A stretch of 8,825 nucleotides of DNA from Myxococcales bacterium (GTDB lineage Bacteria; UBA10199; 2-02-FULL-44-16; JAAZCA01), in assembly GCA_012513515.1 (NCBI GenBank), contig JAAZCA010000027.1, forward strand, positions 1 to 8,825, given 5' to 3'. Both the position numbers and the translations under genes were made by a program. The notes under the pieces were generated by a model that saw only the letters and a list, made by a program, of their open reading frames with translations, did not search any database and was not told the DNA's origin. Positions 1,191-8,825 of this stretch are shown here, in pieces. Every line of letters begins with the position of its first letter. Positions within the stretch are counted from its first letter, which is position 1.

Positions 1191-1670
1191 ATGGATGAGA
1201 AAGAACGCTTGGAGCGGCAGGCGCTTGCCTATTTTCTTCGGCTTTATAATCGGAAGTTCAACACCAAGTATCGTCTTCAGCACAAAAGGGAACGCCCCGA
1301 CTTTTCGGTAAGGAATCTGTATAACGGAGATATTCTAGGCGTTGAAATTTCCCATATATTTCATGACAAAAAAGAGGCGATGATGATGCTCGGACGCGAT
1401 CAGAGCCATATTCATGGAATCATCAGCGCCGATGATCATGTAAGGGTTTTGGAGAGGATACTTAGACAGAAGGCCGAAAAGTATTATGGCTACGAGATCG
1501 ATGCGCCGATAATACTCGTTCTTAGGGACTTTAACCCCATATTCGATGCCAAGACGATCTTTGATCCAAGGCTTCATTTTCGCATGCCGGCTTCGGAATT
1601 TAAGGAGGTCTGGTATATGACGAGGACCAGCCCAGCCAGGAAATGGGACAAACTGGTTCGTCTCAAGTAG
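1191..1670 (+). CDS. Uncharacterised protein, possible PD-(D/E)XK nuclease fold
   Basis: 159 residues from ATG 1191; an in-frame TTG at 1182 would add three. After an N-terminal helix (KERLERQALAYFLRLYNRKF) comes RPDF (D37) and then, after a strand-like gap, GVEIS (E52-x-S54). This resembles the D...E-x-K core of restriction-endonuclease-like proteins, with Ser in place of the usual Lys. A Lys-rich helix and a hydrophobic strand (APIILVLRD) follow, as in that fold. Activity is therefore uncertain. No partner methylase, antitoxin or helicase gene is adjacent in the same direction. There is no good Shine-Dalgarno before either start, so initiation is unresolved. The gene begins 100 bp after the MITE-like element and its 3' end overlaps that of addA by 8 bp in convergent orientation. 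The fold assignment is inference; coding status is well supported by length and composition. Confidence 0.7.
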   Translation: MDEKERLERQALAYFLRLYNRKFNTKYRLQHKRERPDFSVRNLYNGDILGVEISHIFHDKKEAMMMLGRDQSHIHGIISADDHVRVLERILRQKAEKYYGYEIDAPIILVLRDFNPIFDAKTIFDPRLHFRMPASEFKEVWYMTRTSPARKWDKLVRLK

Positions 1671-4629
1671 CCATCCAGCAGATCCTGTTGTGTTTGTAGG
1701 GGCACCTCGCGCATGGAGCGTCTGTATTTTTTCCGAATCTGCCATTTTCGATTTTAGATATTATATCGAGGATCTGACCGGTTCCGAGATTTCTTCTTTC
1801 ATCGGTGACCGGAGTGATGTGAACTTCTCCCGGGTCGAGAAATATTAGTGAAGTAGATTCGATCTTTTTTCCTGTGGCCGACTCGGAGGCCAGAGCATAA
1901 ATTATCATCTGTAATTCATACATCTTAGCGCGCTCGTTTATTTCGTTCTTATTCAGTCGATCGGTTTTAAAATCTATAATTCTGAGGTTTTTATTGTCGT
2001 CGAGCAGCCAGTCGATCGATCCTATTATTAAGTTCCCGTCGATCTCCCACTCAAATGGGAGCTCCCTTTTTCCTCGGCCGAGGTTTTTTGCGAAATCAGT
2101 TTTTAGAAATGGATCGATCACTTTGTGAACGGCAGTGAGCGCTTTTTCGCTCGCCCCCACTCCATTGGCCAAGCATGCCCTCCGCACCAAAGATTCCAGG
2201 TTGCTATCCGTGTTCGAAGGTATTTTTTCCAAGACGCTATGGACGATAGATCCGACGACGTTCGCTGGAATCTCATCGCGTTTTTCCGCTATGAACGAGT
2301 CTGACGGCATTCCTATGACGTGGCGGAGGTTGTATTCCTGAGGGCATCTGTCGTAGCATTCTATCTGTGATGCAGTATATATATCCTCCGTATTCTTTTT
2401 GATACCAGGAAGCAGGGATTGCGGTATCGGAGAATAATTTTTATCCAGTTTGATTTGAAGCTGTGCATTGGCACGTTCTTTTTCGGATGGCGACCAAGGC
2501 GTTGCGATTCCAGAGGTGATGGCTTCGTCGATGGCTGGGATCATCCATTCGTTCCAAAGAGCTCTTCTCTTCATGTTTCGATGAACGGGTATGACGAGCT
2601 GCTCCATGGCTCTAGTCATTGCGACATAGAGCAGCCTCATCGATTCGAGTTCCTGGTTTTTTGCTTCGTGTTCTTTGATTTCTATGAGACGGGCGGTCTC
2701 CTCGCGCTCGGAAAGGGGAGTCTCTTTTTGTTTGAGTTTAAAAGCGACGCCGCGTTCGCGCGTGAACTGCCATTTGCCGCCGCTGTTTTTTTTCAGCCTG
2801 AACAACTCAGGAAGTATTACGATTGGAAATTCAAGTCCCTTTGCTGCGTGTACGCTCATAAATCTTACGGCATCGGCGGTGCTTCCGGCCGCAGGCGGAT
2901 CACCGATGCGGGCGCTTCGATCCTTTAATTCCTTTATGAATGATGTAAAATCGCGAAGCGGTGTGGGACCCTGTTTTTCAACCGATGCCGCAAGAGAAAT
3001 AAATCTATCGATATTCGCTGTCATCCCTCCGGATGGGTCGAGTGACTGACAGATCTGTTCGTAACCGGTCATGGATATCACGCGCGTAAGAATTTCGGAT
3101 GGGCGCATGTGCTCCGCCATTTCCTCTATCTCGGTTATAAGAGAACATCTTTCGTCGAGCCTTGTATTTGTGACCAAAGATTTTCCCTCATCGCCGGAAA
3201 GGAGCACGAGGTCGTCGTCTGATAGTCCAATGAGCGGTGATCTAAGAAGGCCGAGAAGGGCGGTGGTATCCTCCCTGTTTGAGGCATATGAAAGAACGAA
3301 TAAAAGGTCGGTTATCTCCTGCCGTCCCAGTAGTCCTCTGCCGCCGAAGATCAGATATGGAACGCCCGCTATGCGAAAAGCCTTCTCGTATGGCGCTATG
3401 GATGTCAGGGCTTGAAAAAGGCAGACTATTTCGCCGTATCCGGCCTTCCCCGAGTCGCACAGTTCGGTGACGTAGGATGCTATAGCTCTTCCTTCCGCTT
3501 GTCGTCTTTGTTCCGATGAACTTTCTGCGGGCAGCTCCATGTTCAAGGTGACTAAAGAAGGGAGAGCCGTATTTTCATCCCTGAAGGCGGTCATCTCTTC
3601 GCCGACGGCCGATATATCATCCCTCTGGAGGCTGCCGAAGAGACCCTCGGAGAGAGTTTTTTGGCAGATGTTAACGAAGTCTATTATCTTCGGGCGGGAT
3701 CTGAAATTTTCAAGCAGATGCGCGCATTTGCCGCCTTTGCCCCGTATCATCTCCAGAATTCGGGTGAAACAATCTATATTTGCGCCCCTGAACCTGTAGA
3801 TAGACTGACGCGGATCTCCGACGATGCAGAGCTTGTTGGTTTTTTCGTCGAAGAGTTTGAGGATCAATTCGGTCTGTGCGTCATTGGTGTCCTGAAATTC
3901 GTCGACGAGTATATGATCAAATTTCTTTCTGTAGTGGTCGAGCGCTTCTGGACTTGAATCGAGAAGTTCCAAGACTTTTATTTCCAAACCCTGAAAGTCA
4001 AGAGCTCCTATGCGCTCGAGCTGCCTTTCTAATGATGCGGTAACTTTTTTAAAGACGCTGCGAAGCGCCAGCAAAATTTCACGCTCCTGCGCGTCCGCTA
4101 TTTTTTCGTCGGTAAGAGATTTTGCTGCGTGCCAGCGAAAGGAGGAGAGGTCCTCGAGCGCTCCTATCGCCGTTCCGAAGTCCACCGAGTCAACCATGAA
4201 TGAGGCATCGGGATCATTCTTTTGAAGAAGGGAGAGGAGGGTGTTTTTTACCGCCTGTCCTGCCATCAGATTTGCGGCGTTTTCATCGATGATAAAGAAA
4301 GCCGGATCGATGGCTATCAGCGGAGCGTGCTGACGAAGTATTCTGGCGCAGCAGGAATCGAACGTGCCTATCCATGAGTTTTCTATTTTGTAGTGATACT
4401 TGCCCGGCGCCCTTTTCCGAAGTCTGGATTTTAGCTCTCCCGCGGCTTTTTCGGTGAATGTTATTGCCAAAACGCGATCGATTTTGTTCCAGTCGCCTTC
4501 AAGGATATTTAGAAAACGCTCGATCAGAACGGTCGTTTTTCCGGAGCCTGCGCCGGCGACTATGGCGAGGGATCCATCTATTGAAGTAGCCGCATAATCT
4601 TGTGATTTAGTCAGTTTCTTTTCCGACAT
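1663..4629 (-). CDS. addA: AddA-type UvrD/Rep-family helicase-nuclease subunit
   Basis: 988 residues from ATG 4629. Superfamily 1 helicase motifs appear in order: Walker A AGAGSGKT (25-32), Ia LAITFTEKAAGEL (about 54-66), II VDEFQDT (242-248), III VGDPRQSIYRFRGA, IV ENFRSRPK, V VHAAKGLEF (593-601), VI LLYVAMTRA (666-674). A RecB-family nuclease domain follows: GSIVH (H797), GSIDW (D873), IIDFKTD (D886, K888) and QMIIY (Q907, Y911). Cys C762, C973, C976 and C984 could bind an Fe-S cluster. With AddB it should unwind and degrade double-strand DNA ends and load RecA. ATG 4629 is preferred over the in-frame GTG 4641 because AGAGGTG lies 9 nt upstream of it. It overlaps the addB stop by 23 bp, indicating translational coupling. 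The length is shorter than B. subtilis AddA (about 1230 aa). Confidence 0.93.
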   Translation of the reverse strand: MSEKKLTKSQDYAATSIDGSLAIVAGAGSGKTTVLIERFLNILEGDWNKIDRVLAITFTEKAAGELKSRLRKRAPGKYHYKIENSWIGTFDSCCARILRQHAPLIAIDPAFFIIDENAANLMAGQAVKNTLLSLLQKNDPDASFMVDSVDFGTAIGALEDLSSFRWHAAKSLTDEKIADAQEREILLALRSVFKKVTASLERQLERIGALDFQGLEIKVLELLDSSPEALDHYRKKFDHILVDEFQDTNDAQTELILKLFDEKTNKLCIVGDPRQSIYRFRGANIDCFTRILEMIRGKGGKCAHLLENFRSRPKIIDFVNICQKTLSEGLFGSLQRDDISAVGEEMTAFRDENTALPSLVTLNMELPAESSSEQRRQAEGRAIASYVTELCDSGKAGYGEIVCLFQALTSIAPYEKAFRIAGVPYLIFGGRGLLGRQEITDLLFVLSYASNREDTTALLGLLRSPLIGLSDDDLVLLSGDEGKSLVTNTRLDERCSLITEIEEMAEHMRPSEILTRVISMTGYEQICQSLDPSGGMTANIDRFISLAASVEKQGPTPLRDFTSFIKELKDRSARIGDPPAAGSTADAVRFMSVHAAKGLEFPIVILPELFRLKKNSGGKWQFTRERGVAFKLKQKETPLSEREETARLIEIKEHEAKNQELESMRLLYVAMTRAMEQLVIPVHRNMKRRALWNEWMIPAIDEAITSGIATPWSPSEKERANAQLQIKLDKNYSPIPQSLLPGIKKNTEDIYTASQIECYDRCPQEYNLRHVIGMPSDSFIAEKRDEIPANVVGSIVHSVLEKIPSNTDSNLESLVRRACLANGVGASEKALTAVHKVIDPFLKTDFAKNLGRGKRELPFEWEIDGNLIIGSIDWLLDDNKNLRIIDFKTDRLNKNEINERAKMYELQMIIYALASESATGKKIESTSLIFLDPGEVHITPVTDERRNLGTGQILDIISKIENGRFGKNTDAPCARCPYKHNRICWMAT

Positions 4630-7360
4630 ATCTGCATACACCTCTATAGTCGCAATATTTTTCGCACTTTCCGTCGGCCGGAGAGACGTCGAATTCGCCG
4701 TTTCTTATCCGGGCTATATAGTCGCAGCAGGCTGATAGTGCGGAATCGATGCACTGGTTCCACTTTTTTTCATCTACCGCAGAGTGGGCTCGCCCTACGT
4801 CATAGTTTATCTTGTTGGCATCCTTGCGGACGAAGCCATGGCACTTTTTTGCCGAGAGTACGTCGACAAAAAGACCTCCCAGCGGCGCAGCGGCGGGAAA
4901 GAGAAGCTTCTTTACGGCGTATGAATAAACGGGCAGCTGAAGCTTTCTTCCTTTTAGAATTTCCGATATCACCGCCTTCGCCTGACTCCTTGTTTTGTAG
5001 TCTATTATTAAAAATTTCGTCGTTGCAATATCGCTATCTATTCTGTCGACGAATCCGTGAAGATAGGCGGGCTTGTCGTTCTTGATCTGTATGGGCAATT
5101 CGTTTTCCTTAACTTTTCCGAACTCCCATTCAAATGCCAGCGGGGAGAGAGGCTCTTCGAGGGATGATGCTTCCGCAGCCTCCAGGCATATTACCTGCAT
5201 CGCCATGATTTTAATGAGCTGTCGCTGCATGGGACGAAGGCCGTCTGCGACTCGGGAGAGGACATCGGAATATTTATTGAATACTTGTTCTATTATCTCA
5301 TCGATCAGATCTGAAAGTTGCGCCGATGTAATTTTGGACCTTGAAAAATTACGAAAATCTTCAAGATGCTCTCTGTAGAAAATTTCAAGAACTTCATGGA
5401 TTATTTTTCCTCTATCTTTGGGTTGCAGCTCCGGAATTTCATCCTCAAGAGGCTTCAGGTTTAAAACTTTTTCGGCGAAAAATACGAATGGGCACTGCGC
5501 GAATCTTTCCAGGCTTGTAGCGCTGTAAGCCTTCCGCGTGAAGCGATCGCGCACAAGTCTGAGTGCATTGTCATCCGAGATTCTGCCGCGGCGGTTTGGA
5601 TGTTCGTCCGAGCCCTGCGATCTACTCTTCTCTATTTTTACGAGTTCACTTATTTGAGAAGGAGAGCGTTTGTTTTCAGGGCAGCATCTGCTGATTCCGC
5701 ATGGAGGTAACACTTCTTCTTCCGGCATTCCGTCCAAGAATGGAGACTTTGATGTTTCAGCGCCGGAATCGTTTATTACGGAATAGGTGAGGAACAGATC
5801 GCTGGTGCACTTCATACGAAATGTGTCGAATAGGTAGCTTTCTTCCGCGAGAAGAGTTTCTTCTCCAGGAAATATTTTTTCGAGCGACCGATCCGGATTT
5901 TTTGCTAAAAAATCTCCTTCGGAAAAAAATATTTTGTCCGGTTTGGATTTTGGGATGTTCCCTCCGAGCATCGACGGAATGAAAACTCGCGACGCGGGTA
6001 TGGGTAGCCCGGATTCAAATTCCACATTCAGAAACGGAAATATTCTCATAGCCGCCACTCTGTGGTGAGATGAGGCGAGTCCTGACATGAGTAGCTGGAT
6101 GAATTCGTCCTTGCACATTTCCCCTATGGAGAAGAGGCGGCATGTTGCGCACAAATCGTCCAATTCGCGCCCCAAGGCAGCTATTGCGGAAAGGCTTCTG
6201 CCGATATAGCGCTTTTGGCTGAGCGGATCGCTCAGCGCCTCTCTCCAATTTTCGACGAACATCATCGATGATATAAAATCCCTGCATCTCGCTGCGTAAT
6301 TTTCAGGAGCATCCGACTCCTGCCATGAGGCGATATTCTCCGGAGATAGCAGGGAGTGTATTGCGGGAACTGAGAGGGCGTTTCCGTTCACCGGGACATT
6401 TCGGTCATCAATTATTTCCGATGCTTCCTGCATGAGATCGTCTGTGAAGGAGTCGGAACGGCGGGTGCAGAGAACCGTATCGCTTCTTTTTGTATCTTCA
6501 TGGGGGTTTTCCATCATGATTCTGGCAAGGGACCTGCATTCCTGTTTTGTTGATCTTGCCGCCATGATGCGTATTCGAGGTTCGTCGAAGTTTTTTGGGA
6601 AGAGTTCGACTTCGTCGTCAGCAATTTTTTCTATTTCGGAGAGCTCTCTCTTGATAACGTCATCATATATTTTTTCTTGTTTTGAGCAGGAGGGGGCCGA
6701 CACCAAAATTTCAATGGAAGGGTAGCTCTCCTTCATTGCGGATATTATAGAGCTTTGTCCGGGGAGAAACCGAAAGAATTCATCGAATGCGACGAGATTT
6801 TTATGGCCTATGGGTGCGTCGGCTCTTCGTATGCGTTCAAGGGCTGCGAGAAATGTGTCGCCCTCATCCAATATTTCGAGGGACTTCTTTCTTTCCTCGT
6901 AGGCTTCGAAGGAGCGAAGTAGATCGTTCTCTTTCACTCCACCTCTCGTATCAAGAATATTTCTGAGCTTCACAGCGTCGATGCCGTTGGATTTCAGGCG
7001 AATTACGGTGTCGGCGAACTGCCTCGCTGTTCCGAGTGATGGCCTCTTGGATTTAAAATATTCGAGCCCAACTTCAGGCAGTATAGAATGAAAGAGGAGG
7101 GCGGGTTGCGTACGCGTCATTGTGTACTTTTGCGGGGAGGCTATCTCCTGGAGAAATCTTTGCCAGGAAAGAATCTCGCTGCCGAATATCGCTTTTCTCT
7201 TTGATGATCCGGTCAGCCTCCCGAAGATCGCCGCCCGTCTCAGCATGGAAGCTGAGCCCTCGGATGGCACCACGATTACGGCATCGCGCGTCGCCGCTTT
7301 CCCCAGGATGAATGAGGTTTTCCCGGAGTTTATAGGACCCTTTATCAGAGTGACAGGCAT
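4607..7360 (-). CDS. addB: AddB-type helicase-nuclease subunit
   Basis: 917 residues. The N-terminus has a Walker A loop GPINSGKT (8-15), followed by the diverged helicase-like scaffold typical of AddB; VFIPSMLGGNIP resembles the family's degenerate motif V. The other canonical SF1 motifs are not recognisable, so the helicase half is probably not a motor. The C-terminal third is a RecB-family nuclease: ATSLERFAQCP (C623), RGKIIHEVLE (H655), GFVDRID (D772, D775), IIDYKT (D787, K789), QLPVY (Q808, Y812). The Fe-S cluster set C623 with C899-x3-C903-x5-C909 is the AddB signature arrangement. Partner of AddA in end resection. First gene of the addB-addA operon, with a promoter at 7459-7487. ATG 7360 places seven residues before the Walker loop, as expected; the ribosome site before it is weak. 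Its final cysteine codons overlap the addA ribosome site. Confidence 0.9.
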   Translation of the reverse strand: MPVTLIKGPINSGKTSFILGKAATRDAVIVVPSEGSASMLRRAAIFGRLTGSSKRKAIFGSEILSWQRFLQEIASPQKYTMTRTQPALLFHSILPEVGLEYFKSKRPSLGTARQFADTVIRLKSNGIDAVKLRNILDTRGGVKENDLLRSFEAYEERKKSLEILDEGDTFLAALERIRRADAPIGHKNLVAFDEFFRFLPGQSSIISAMKESYPSIEILVSAPSCSKQEKIYDDVIKRELSEIEKIADDEVELFPKNFDEPRIRIMAARSTKQECRSLARIMMENPHEDTKRSDTVLCTRRSDSFTDDLMQEASEIIDDRNVPVNGNALSVPAIHSLLSPENIASWQESDAPENYAARCRDFISSMMFVENWREALSDPLSQKRYIGRSLSAIAALGRELDDLCATCRLFSIGEMCKDEFIQLLMSGLASSHHRVAAMRIFPFLNVEFESGLPIPASRVFIPSMLGGNIPKSKPDKIFFSEGDFLAKNPDRSLEKIFPGEETLLAEESYLFDTFRMKCTSDLFLTYSVINDSGAETSKSPFLDGMPEEEVLPPCGISRCCPENKRSPSQISELVKIEKSRSQGSDEHPNRRGRISDDNALRLVRDRFTRKAYSATSLERFAQCPFVFFAEKVLNLKPLEDEIPELQPKDRGKIIHEVLEIFYREHLEDFRNFSRSKITSAQLSDLIDEIIEQVFNKYSDVLSRVADGLRPMQRQLIKIMAMQVICLEAAEASSLEEPLSPLAFEWEFGKVKENELPIQIKNDKPAYLHGFVDRIDSDIATTKFLIIDYKTRSQAKAVISEILKGRKLQLPVYSYAVKKLLFPAAAPLGGLFVDVLSAKKCHGFVRKDANKINYDVGRAHSAVDEKKWNQCIDSALSACCDYIARIRNGEFDVSPADGKCEKYCDYRGVCRYVGKETD
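4639..4645 (-). promoter_or_regulatory. Shine-Dalgarno site for addA inside addB
   Basis: AGAGGTG on the - strand, 9 nt before ATG 4629. It lies within the last addB codons (around the Fe-S cysteine segment), so addA translation is likely coupled to ribosomes finishing addB. This decides the addA start against the GTG at 4641, which lies inside the site itself. Confidence 0.7.
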
Positions 7361-7458
7361 CTGCCATTCATCTCAGGCTGTTGCCTCGCGGTCAAGAAGG
7401 AGCACGCTCCCTTCGTCAATTTTACGACGGTGCTATCCTTTGGGGAATGGCCGAGTTT

Positions 7459-7487
7459 AGAATATTCCATATAAAACAGCATGTTAA
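7459..7487 (-). promoter_or_regulatory. Predicted promoter of the addB-addA operon
   Basis: Read on the - strand: -35 TTAACA (7487-7482, 5 of 6), 17-bp spacer, -10 TATTCT (7464-7459, 4 of 6). The transcript would start near 7452, giving a leader of about 90 nt before addB. The leader can form a small hairpin (GAAGG...CCTTC, about 7403-7424) of unknown meaning. Confidence 0.55.
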
Positions 7488-7557
7488 GCTTGAAAGGTTT
7501 TGGCGTGCGGATTGCTGTGGAAAGGGCTCGTCACGAAGTTTTTGAAAGGAGGGGGAT

Positions 7558-7836
7558 GTGAAAAAGGCAATCGCAACGGGTGTTTTGTTGATAATCCTGC
7601 TGGCGACCTCGATTTTTCTGGCACGTGTGAGCTCCGGAGCCGAAGGGAAGGATCGTGGGAGTACCGGCAGAAGCAATGTCGAAGCCAGGCTCAATCGTGA
7701 AAGCGGTCATGGATCCAGCACTCGAGTCGAACTCGGGAGAAGCTCCCCTGCTGACAGGATGAACAGGTCCTCCGGAAATGTTGATGGTGGCAGGGAGTTC
7801 GAGAGGATCCAGCGCGACAGAATAAGGGACAGATAA
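7558..7836 (+). CDS. Small exported basic protein, unknown function
   Basis: 92 residues from GTG 7558, chosen because AAAGGAGGGGG (7545-7555) sits directly upstream; the ATG at 7556 is out of frame. A two-Lys start and a hydrophobic core (about residues 7-21, GVLLIILLATSIFLA) form a Sec signal peptide or membrane anchor. A possible cleavage site follows SSGA (about residue 28). There is no lipobox Cys. The remaining roughly 63 residues are strongly hydrophilic, rich in Arg, Ser, Gly and acidic residues, with no Cys or aromatic residues except one Phe, and are probably disordered. The protein ends in a basic RIQRDRIRDR tail. Divergent from addB, with a 197-bp shared upstream region; no convincing + strand promoter or downstream terminator was found. 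I do not recognise the family. Confidence 0.75.
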   Translation: MKKAIATGVLLIILLATSIFLARVSSGAEGKDRGSTGRSNVEARLNRESGHGSSTRVELGRSSPADRMNRSSGNVDGGREFERIQRDRIRDR

Positions 7837-8172
7837 GATGTATTAGCTGAACTAGCCGCAATCTGCCCCCGGCATTTCGCATTTCTACTCGCAATCTAAT
7901 CTTGCAACTGCCGTGACTGGGAAAAACAGAAGCTAGAAGCGAGAGGCTAGAAGCTAGAAAAATCTCGCCTGTAGAAATCTCGTTTCTCACTTCTAGATTC
8001 TGGCTTCTTGATTTTCCCGTCGCGGCGGAAGGGGAGGCGATGCGCTTCTTCTTTTGGATTATTGACTTGGGAAGTTCAGTGTAATACCCTGATTTTTAAG
8101 TCGAAAAAACACAAAATACCACACAACTTTTTTCTGTTTGTGCCGATTGAAAGGCAAAAATAGGAGGGTTTT
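7837..8172. other. Non-coding stretch before the FGE-like small gene
   Basis: This 336-bp stretch holds no credible gene. Positions 7837-7903 are unremarkable. Positions 7904-8012 are the left arm of the inverted repeat. Positions 8013-8172 are the upstream region of the small gene at 8173. They contain TTGACT (8062-8067) and TAATAC (8082-8087), separated by only 14 bp and so a poor promoter, and an imperfect hairpin TTTGTGCC/GGCAAAAA (8137-8144 with 8153-8160) ending just before the ribosome site. Confidence 0.6.
7904..8012 (+). repeat. Left arm of a roughly 110-bp inverted repeat (TAGAAGC-rich)
   Basis: It starts with GCAACTGCCGTGACTGGG and continues through overlapping CTAGAAGC-like units. 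The arm also partly pairs with itself: AGAAGC-AGAA units near 7928 with TTCT-GCTTCT near 8008. Compared with the reverse complement of 8483-8592 I count five substitutions and one 1-bp gap. The first 17 bases also match 1021-1037 in the MITE-like element (GCAAC-CCGTGACTGG), showing that the repeat is modular. Confidence 0.85.
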
Positions 8173-8349
8173 ATGATCGGTATAGGCGAGTTAGTTTGTC
8201 CGGCAGGGATGGTGCTTCAAAAGCCAGATGGTGCTGTTCATCCCCGCTACTTGAGACATCCCGACTATCACGGCGACTATCACGGCTACGATATCGGTTT
8301 CCGTTGTGTTGCTCCACCCAGGGACTCCAAGAAGTGGCGCAGTCTTTGA
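8173..8349 (+). CDS. 58-aa protein resembling an internally deleted formylglycine-generating enzyme (SUMF1) domain
   Basis: AGGAGGG (8162-8168) lies 4-5 nt before ATG 8173, a near-perfect ribosome site, and a strong terminator follows the stop by 18 bp. The protein opens with MIGIGELVCPAGMVLQ, where CPxGMVL is how many FGE/SUMF1 domains begin. It closes with YDIGFRCVAPP, where GFRCV is the usual end of that domain. The 200 or so residues normally between them, including the catalytic Cys pair, are absent. Between lie about 20 residues with a short DYHG-DYHG repeat. It therefore cannot be an active FGE. It may be a decayed gene retaining expression signals, or a small protein of new function. 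It lies between the two arms of an inverted repeat (7904-8012, 8483-8592). Family link is by motif recognition only. Confidence 0.55.
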   Translation: MIGIGELVCPAGMVLQKPDGAVHPRYLRHPDYHGDYHGYDIGFRCVAPPRDSKKWRSL

Positions 8350-8367
8350 TTCTTTTGTTTTTTACCC

Positions 8368-8402
8368 TTGGTCCGTTCATTTAACCGAACGGACCAATTT
8401 TT
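8368..8402 (+). terminator. Rho-independent terminator of the FGE-like small gene
   Basis: A perfect 11-bp stem TTGGTCCGTTC (8368-8378) / GAACGGACCAA (8387-8397) with an 8-nt loop, followed by T5. It is AT-closed with T runs on both sides, so it could act on both strands, including transcription arriving from the - strand gene at the right edge. Confidence 0.9.
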
Positions 8403-8482
8403 ATGACCAACGCGCCACAAATGGTCACATTGCCGTTCCAACAAATAACTTCGACCATGGAGAATTGAGCATCGACCAAAAC

Positions 8483-8592
8483 ATCAAGAAGCTAGAATCT
8501 AGAAGTGAGAAGCGAGATTTCTACAGGCGAGATTTTTCTAGCTTCTAGCCTCTCGCTTCTAGCTTCTGTTTTTCCCCGGTCACGGTCGTTGC
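8483..8592 (-). repeat. Right arm of the roughly 110-bp inverted repeat
   Basis: Reverse complement of 7904-8012 at about 95% identity by eye. It is contiguous on its outer side with the MITE-like segment 8576-8650, sharing the GCAACGACCGTGACCGG junction. The 470 bp between the arms hold the small FGE-like gene and its terminator; positions 8403-8482 show nothing recognisable. Confidence 0.85.
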
Positions 8593-8650
8593 GGGATGAC
8601 AAGCGCATAGCTTTTAGAGGTGCCCTGAATTTGCTGATTTTTCAGAGATC
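8576..8650 (-). mobile_element. Second, partial copy of the MITE-like element
   Basis: Reverse complement of 963-1037 with four substitutions in 75 positions by eye. It keeps the outer end (GATCTCTGAAAAA on the - strand, against AACCTCTGAAAAA in the first copy) but lacks the hairpin half and second terminal repeat of that copy. TAGAAGC-type sequence follows instead. The outer end runs into CTTAAG (8652-8657), matching the right flank of the first copy (1093-1098). Confidence 0.8.
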
Positions 8651-8825
8651 ACTTAAGATAGACATCCACAGGTATCGCCGGGGGCGTATCGGGGGAATGC
8701 AACTGCTGCATTTTTATTATCGACTTCACCTGCGAGTATTGCCTTCCTCCGGCGTGGGAGATCCCCGGCAGGGATGTTATCCCTTCATCATAGCCAAGCT
8801 CTACATATCTCATCCCGTCCGGGGC
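8649..8825 (-). CDS. C-terminal part of an unidentified protein (partial)
   Basis: A - strand frame enters from the right edge and gives 58 residues ending VDVYLK before TGA (8651-8649). Composition is protein-like (GMRYVELGYDEGITSLPGIS, then a Lys/Gln helix and a Pro-rich tail PDTPPAIPVDVYLK), but I recognise no family. The final codons CTT AAG TGA coincide with the outer end of the repeat element, so the element probably lies at, or has replaced, the original gene end. No separate terminator lies between it and the repeats; the hairpin at 8368-8402 is the next one in its direction. Confidence 0.6.
   Translation of the reverse strand, partial: APDGMRYVELGYDEGITSLPGISHAGGRQYSQVKSIIKMQQLHSPDTPPAIPVDVYLK

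Follow-up and report, generated by a model that had tools for sequence, protein, structure and literature searches.

A 58-codon open reading frame as a probable relic of a diversity-generating retroelement in a Myxococcales genome

The 58-aa open reading frame (ORF) described here is very probably what is left of a diversity-generating retroelement (DGR). Such systems of bacteria mutate a gene of their own on purpose, and the ORF would represent the decayed target gene of one of them. It is most likely an ordinary relic of this kind and not a new small protein. The window, i.e., the whole stretch of 8,825 bp that was analysed, is a complete contig (C27) of a 1.79 Mb genome (G000; 42 contigs, 99.3% complete) and contains the following features:

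408-953, + strand: DksA-like protein, an ordinary neighbour
1663-7360, - strand: AddA/AddB-like helicase-nuclease pair (UvrD, PDDEXK_1, ADDB_N), likewise ordinary neighbours
7919-8022: inverted second copy of the 104-nt centre of the dispersed repeat, located across the remnant from its partner at 8473-8576 (94%)
8162-8167, + strand: Shine-Dalgarno AGGAGG of the remnant gene, with a similar context (aaaaataggagg...tttatg) 5' of the full-length variable protein (VP) of genome G042
8173-8349, + strand: ORF of 58 aa with ATG start, read as an internally deleted DGR VP gene
8197-8244, + strand: N-terminal part (CPAGMVLQKPDGAVHP), with homology to the beginning of the VP of G042
8245-8328, + strand: DGR variable-region remnant (R-YLRH-P-DYHG(DYHG)YD-IGFRCVAPPRDS)
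8263-8286, + strand: 12-nt tandem duplication (GACTATCACGGC x2) within the variable region
8296-8328, + strand: sequence similar to the invariant 3' end that DGR variable regions share (GGTTTCCGTTGTG...CCCAGGGACTCC); it belongs to the variable-region (VR) type (GACTCC), not the template-repeat (TR) type (CACTYCC)
8352-8422, + strand: synteny with the interval between VP and avd of G001, a genome of the same family (alignment score 60 vs at most 30 in 1,000 shuffles)
8368-8397, + strand: hairpin between VP and avd with an 11-bp stem and an 8-nt loop, followed by TTTTT
8403-8422, + strand: truncated avd (accessory variability determinant), first 20 nt (ATGACCAACGCGCCACAAAT), encoding MTNAPQ, which is identical in G001
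8433-8660: dispersed genomic repeat with dozens of partial copies, its start some 10 nt 3' of the avd stump

Homology and synteny of the remnant

The first-pass annotation had described the ORF as a single FGE domain whose core is deleted and whose ends are joined in frame, and both ends bear this out. Residues 7-24 (L-CPAGMVLQKPDGAVHP) align without gaps to the N-terminus (LKCPEGMVLINAGGAVHP) of the best full-length likeness, an FGE-like frame of 247 aa in G042 (243 aa from its ATG; start MSLKCPEGMVLINAGGAVHP, end YRGDNGPDNRFSFIGFRCVAQPEDSSK), with a score of 60 that was reached by none of 20,000 shuffles. Differences to this gene fall 3, 3, and 9 times on codon positions 1, 2, and 3, respectively, as expected with descent from a protein-coding ancestor. 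Residues 25-53 match a profile made from nine FGE-like proteins at the end of their variable regions, with an E-value of 7.5e-5 (best of 20,000 shuffles, 0.12), or of 4.2e-7 when the 12-nt duplication is taken out. Residues 25-58 fit the pattern with which DGR variable regions end (R-x4-P-x6-[I/V]GFRC...DSK), the spacing R-x4-P-x6-IGFRC appearing after removal of the tandem duplication. The protein has the layout ...LVCPAGMVLQKPDGAVHP|RYLRHPDYHGDYHGYDIGFRCVAPPRDSKKWRSL. Judging from the alignment to G042, about 197 residues appear to be absent between the two parts. Sequence searches of Pfam, NCBIfam, and PDB with the 58 aa returned nothing useful; a weak AraC match at an E-value of 0.22 was dismissed as chance.

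DGRs of the active type occur in relatives of the organism, including the same-family G001 and the same-order G005, and DGR-type RT is present in 9 of 46 species of the phylum. Seven TR/VR pairs from six relatives of the same class (G023, G005, G001, G021, G045, and G043 with two cassettes) differ by 13-21 mismatches per 70 nt, every one of which lies at a TR adenine and none elsewhere. In Pfam searches, the components of these cassettes were assigned to bAvd (PF22296; E 2.8e-19 for avd of G001), RVT_1 (RT), and FGE-sulfatase (PF03781; VPs), and a C-type-lectin fold of VR-containing regions is established for DGR targets (PMC8144416, PMC5006420). The VP ends of the relatives have R-x4-P-x6-[I/V]GFR in common; their variable regions end in CCCAGGACT-type and their templates in CCCAGCACT-type sequence. 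The window has a C-terminal variable region of the FGE/C-type-lectin type and, at 8296-8328, an IMH-like invariant 3' end with the GACTCC of variable regions. Recombination between VR and TR was considered as cause of the deletion and rejected, given that the 3' end is a VR-type one and that the hairpin between VP and avd has been kept.

The origin of the ORF is very probably settled by the synteny of its 3' flank. Downstream of the VP gene, the relatives have a short stretch rich in T, in most cases a hairpin, and next the start codon of avd; the window shows, in this order, TTTTGTTTTTTACCCTTGG, the hairpin, TTTTT, and the avd start. Altogether 71 nt 3' of the ORF align with the VP-avd intergenic region of the G001 cassette (C12: VP, avd, RT, TR), including TTTTGTTTTTTACCCTTGG, a hairpin, TTTTTATGACCAA, and the MTNAPQ start of avd. 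The likeness to avd ends after 20 nt. Among the features of DGR targets is an inverted repeat 3' of the VR; it is found in the window at 8368-8397 and has counterparts at the equivalent place in most relatives. On these sequence grounds, the parent of the ORF is a DGR variable protein and not a formylglycine enzyme; parent VPs of this type are regarded as display proteins, and no enzyme role is assigned to them.

Two details of the variable region deserve mention. Firstly, the codons TTG and AGA in YLR cannot be derived from AAC by simple A-to-N changes, which counts against the relic and renders the exact deletion joint ambiguous. R-YLRH-P fits the spacing of variable regions, but YLR may alternatively represent an upstream N-L-R, which would imply a second small deletion. 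YLRH and DYHGYD may have an adenine-directed origin, but the genome's own template repeat is absent, which is a further point against the relic. Secondly, the two copies of the 12-nt duplication share identical non-adenine letters. The duplication therefore probably arose after mutagenesis, and RT slippage on the template was judged a less likely source.

Missing machinery, dispersed repeats, and the course of decay

Neither the RVT_1 model nor DGR RT sequences used as queries detected any RT in the window's genome. This absence is informative, because the RVT_1 model does detect the RT type of the relatives. Likewise, no avd was found elsewhere in the genome, no template repeat or TR-type end in the genome or the window, and hence no TR differing from a VR at adenines. 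An Rfam search of 7400-8825 gave no match. The machinery has presumably been lost and is not simply hidden in an assembly gap; such a gap could conceal an RT elsewhere, which is a point against the relic, but the truncated avd at the locus stands even in that case.

VR-type ends occur at only two places in the genome, the remnant (8296-8328) and a full-length FGE-like gene at C2:478-1200 (L001, L086), whose 248-aa FGE-fold product, in a genome lacking avd, RT, and TR, suggests that this gene is an orphan target of a DGR. Downstream of it lie a hairpin and an apparent, frame-broken ORF6N-like gene (recognised by eye). The first-pass annotation had suggested looking for a parent of the ORF among the full-length SUMF1-domain proteins of the same genome. 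C2:478-1200 is the sole other such gene, and it is not a likely parent since the match of its N-terminus does not exceed chance (2,452 of 20,000 shuffles reach the score).

The dispersed repeat beside the avd stump also occurs at 957-1041 of the window and in dozens of places in the genome, and many contigs end in it. It combines a core of 104 nt (AGAAGCTAGAAGCGAGAGG...) with a 5' segment (CCGTTCCAACAA(A)TAACTTCGACCATGG) and with a 3' segment (GGATGACAAGCGCATAGC...); these are found separately too, and the repeat has no match in Rfam.

The locus would once have carried a complete DGR cassette in the order VP, hairpin, avd, RT, and TR, as in the relatives. Its VP would have been a display protein with FGE/C-type-lectin fold, the C-terminal variable region of which was rewritten from the template repeat. 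A deletion in the lineage of the window would then have removed approximately 197 residues, from after the first strand to the last third of the variable region, and avd would have lost everything beyond codon 6-7, where the dispersed repeat now lies. What would remain is an in-frame fusion of 58 codons with the original ribosome site and hairpin, in a genome devoid of RT and template. If translated at all, the product is probably a peptide that does not fold and has no function.

A further DGR that is decayed or rearranged was observed in G023 (L073, 4034-5120 of C70), where a stop codon breaks the VP frame ahead of the variable region, avd is cut after 18 codons and fused to the middle of RT, and Ns precede the TR.

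Competing readings of the 58-codon frame

The expression signals had been taken as a sign that the gene is not decaying. They are indeed present, with AGGAGG at 8162-8167 and a "terminator" stem followed by five Ts at 8368-8397, but they are explained as inherited parts of the DGR, since the Shine-Dalgarno context is similar in G042 and the hairpin is the one between VP and avd. An in-frame deletion was also thought unusual for a decaying gene; by chance, however, one deletion in three is in frame, and an open frame of 58 codons needs no selection. As the rest of the cassette is gone, a relic is the simplest account, although the frame is still open across its whole length and a same-genus genome that might show the undeleted parent is lacking.

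It is improbable that the ORF is a small protein derived from a DGR target gene and selected for a new function, be it as partner, decoy, or minimal display peptide. The open frame with its good Shine-Dalgarno, ATG, and hairpin would suit such a protein, as would the fact that neither the large deletion nor the 12-nt duplication shifts the frame. All of these signals are accounted for by DGR inheritance, however, and the adjoining avd is truncated. A single-sequence structure model of the 58 aa contains some strands, but its low confidence (mean pLDDT 62, pTM 0.46) makes it uninformative, and the core of the fold is absent. Nor was a second case found: the similar mini-proteins that had been anticipated elsewhere did not turn up in 46 genomes of the phylum, in a scan of GTDB contigs, or in viral contigs, and a phage search with the DNA of the element yielded no match. 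The proposal that a full FGE-like protein has the peptide as its partner or decoy finds no support at a locus whose cassette is truncated 3' to 20 nt of avd, in a genome without RT.

Very improbable, in our view, is a variant of this idea in which a deletion during DGR retrohoming would have created a minimal display peptide, consisting of the first strand and the variable-region tail, that was translated and kept after loss of the retroelement. We give similarly little credence to an assembly artefact, i.e., a chimeric contig that joins two VP ends or cuts the cassette at the dispersed repeat. Repeat-mediated misjoins are conceivable where so many contigs end in this repeat, but the joint within the VP lies outside it, and the avd stump ends before the repeat starts, so that the repeat adjoins the stump even if its far side were misjoined. 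Hardly credible, finally, is a degraded ordinary SUMF1/FGE gene unrelated to any DGR, which would match the FGE-fold character of both ends but is contradicted by the variable-region likeness, the VR-type 3' end, and the hairpin and avd start that follow directly in DGR order.

The DGR relic as preferred here illustrates that decay can reduce a DGR to a short open frame whose start signals are intact. Such a frame is easily over-read as a novel small protein and can be recognised only when it is compared with cassettes that are intact. The relic also provides an example of one genome without RT, avd, and template in a DGR-rich lineage, while a full-length VP gene (C2) persists.

Repeat tracts in related RT genes and comparison with known systems

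An observation on the relatives is possibly of greater interest than the 58-aa relic. The DGR RT genes of the phylum carry tetranucleotide (in one case 8-nt) repeat tracts of 16-48 bp at one fixed site just 5' of RT motif 4 (GIPIGNLTSQ), at the following loci:

L078, L080, L151, L079 (L174), L087 (L067), L083, L075 (L150), L077: repeat-bearing RT loci, tract just upstream of RT motif 4

The units are CAGC in G001, G021, and G036, CAAT and CACT in the two cassettes of G043, CATC in G023 (C36), an 8-nt unit in G005, and a short ACAG run in G030. In seven of the nine readable cases the N- and C-terminal halves of RT lie in different frames, one of the seven (G024) having a tract of 9 bp only. No repeats of more than 10 bp preceded motif 4 among the DGR-like RTs read outside the phylum. 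From their sequence, these tracts look like candidates for phase variation of DGR activity; no report of phase-variable repeats in DGR RT was found in the literature searched, which was covered in part.

Among intact systems, the cassette of G001 has a full-length VP, avd, TR, and an RT split in frame by the CAGC repeat, whereas in the window the fused ends of the VP and 20 nt of avd are all that is left. The VP of G042 (C158; MAG AlinenLipids_bin-3264, "uncultured delta proteobacterium") has the N-terminus CPxGMVLxxxxGAVHP and the C-terminus IGFRCVAxPxDSxK in common with the ORF, as well as a similar Shine-Dalgarno context, but keeps the roughly 197 middle residues that the ORF lacks; RT was likewise not detected in its genome. 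The prototype DGR of a phage requires a hairpin 3' of the VR as target element (PMC3240598). The hairpin of the window differs from this type in its loop (8 nt) and distance (39 nt), and it may act as terminator, in homing, or in both roles. With SUMF1/FGE proteins (PF03781) the parent of the ORF would share the fold family; however, these possess the full FGE-sulfatase domain with its catalytic core, whereas the 58-aa product is without nearly all of the domain and has no Pfam match.
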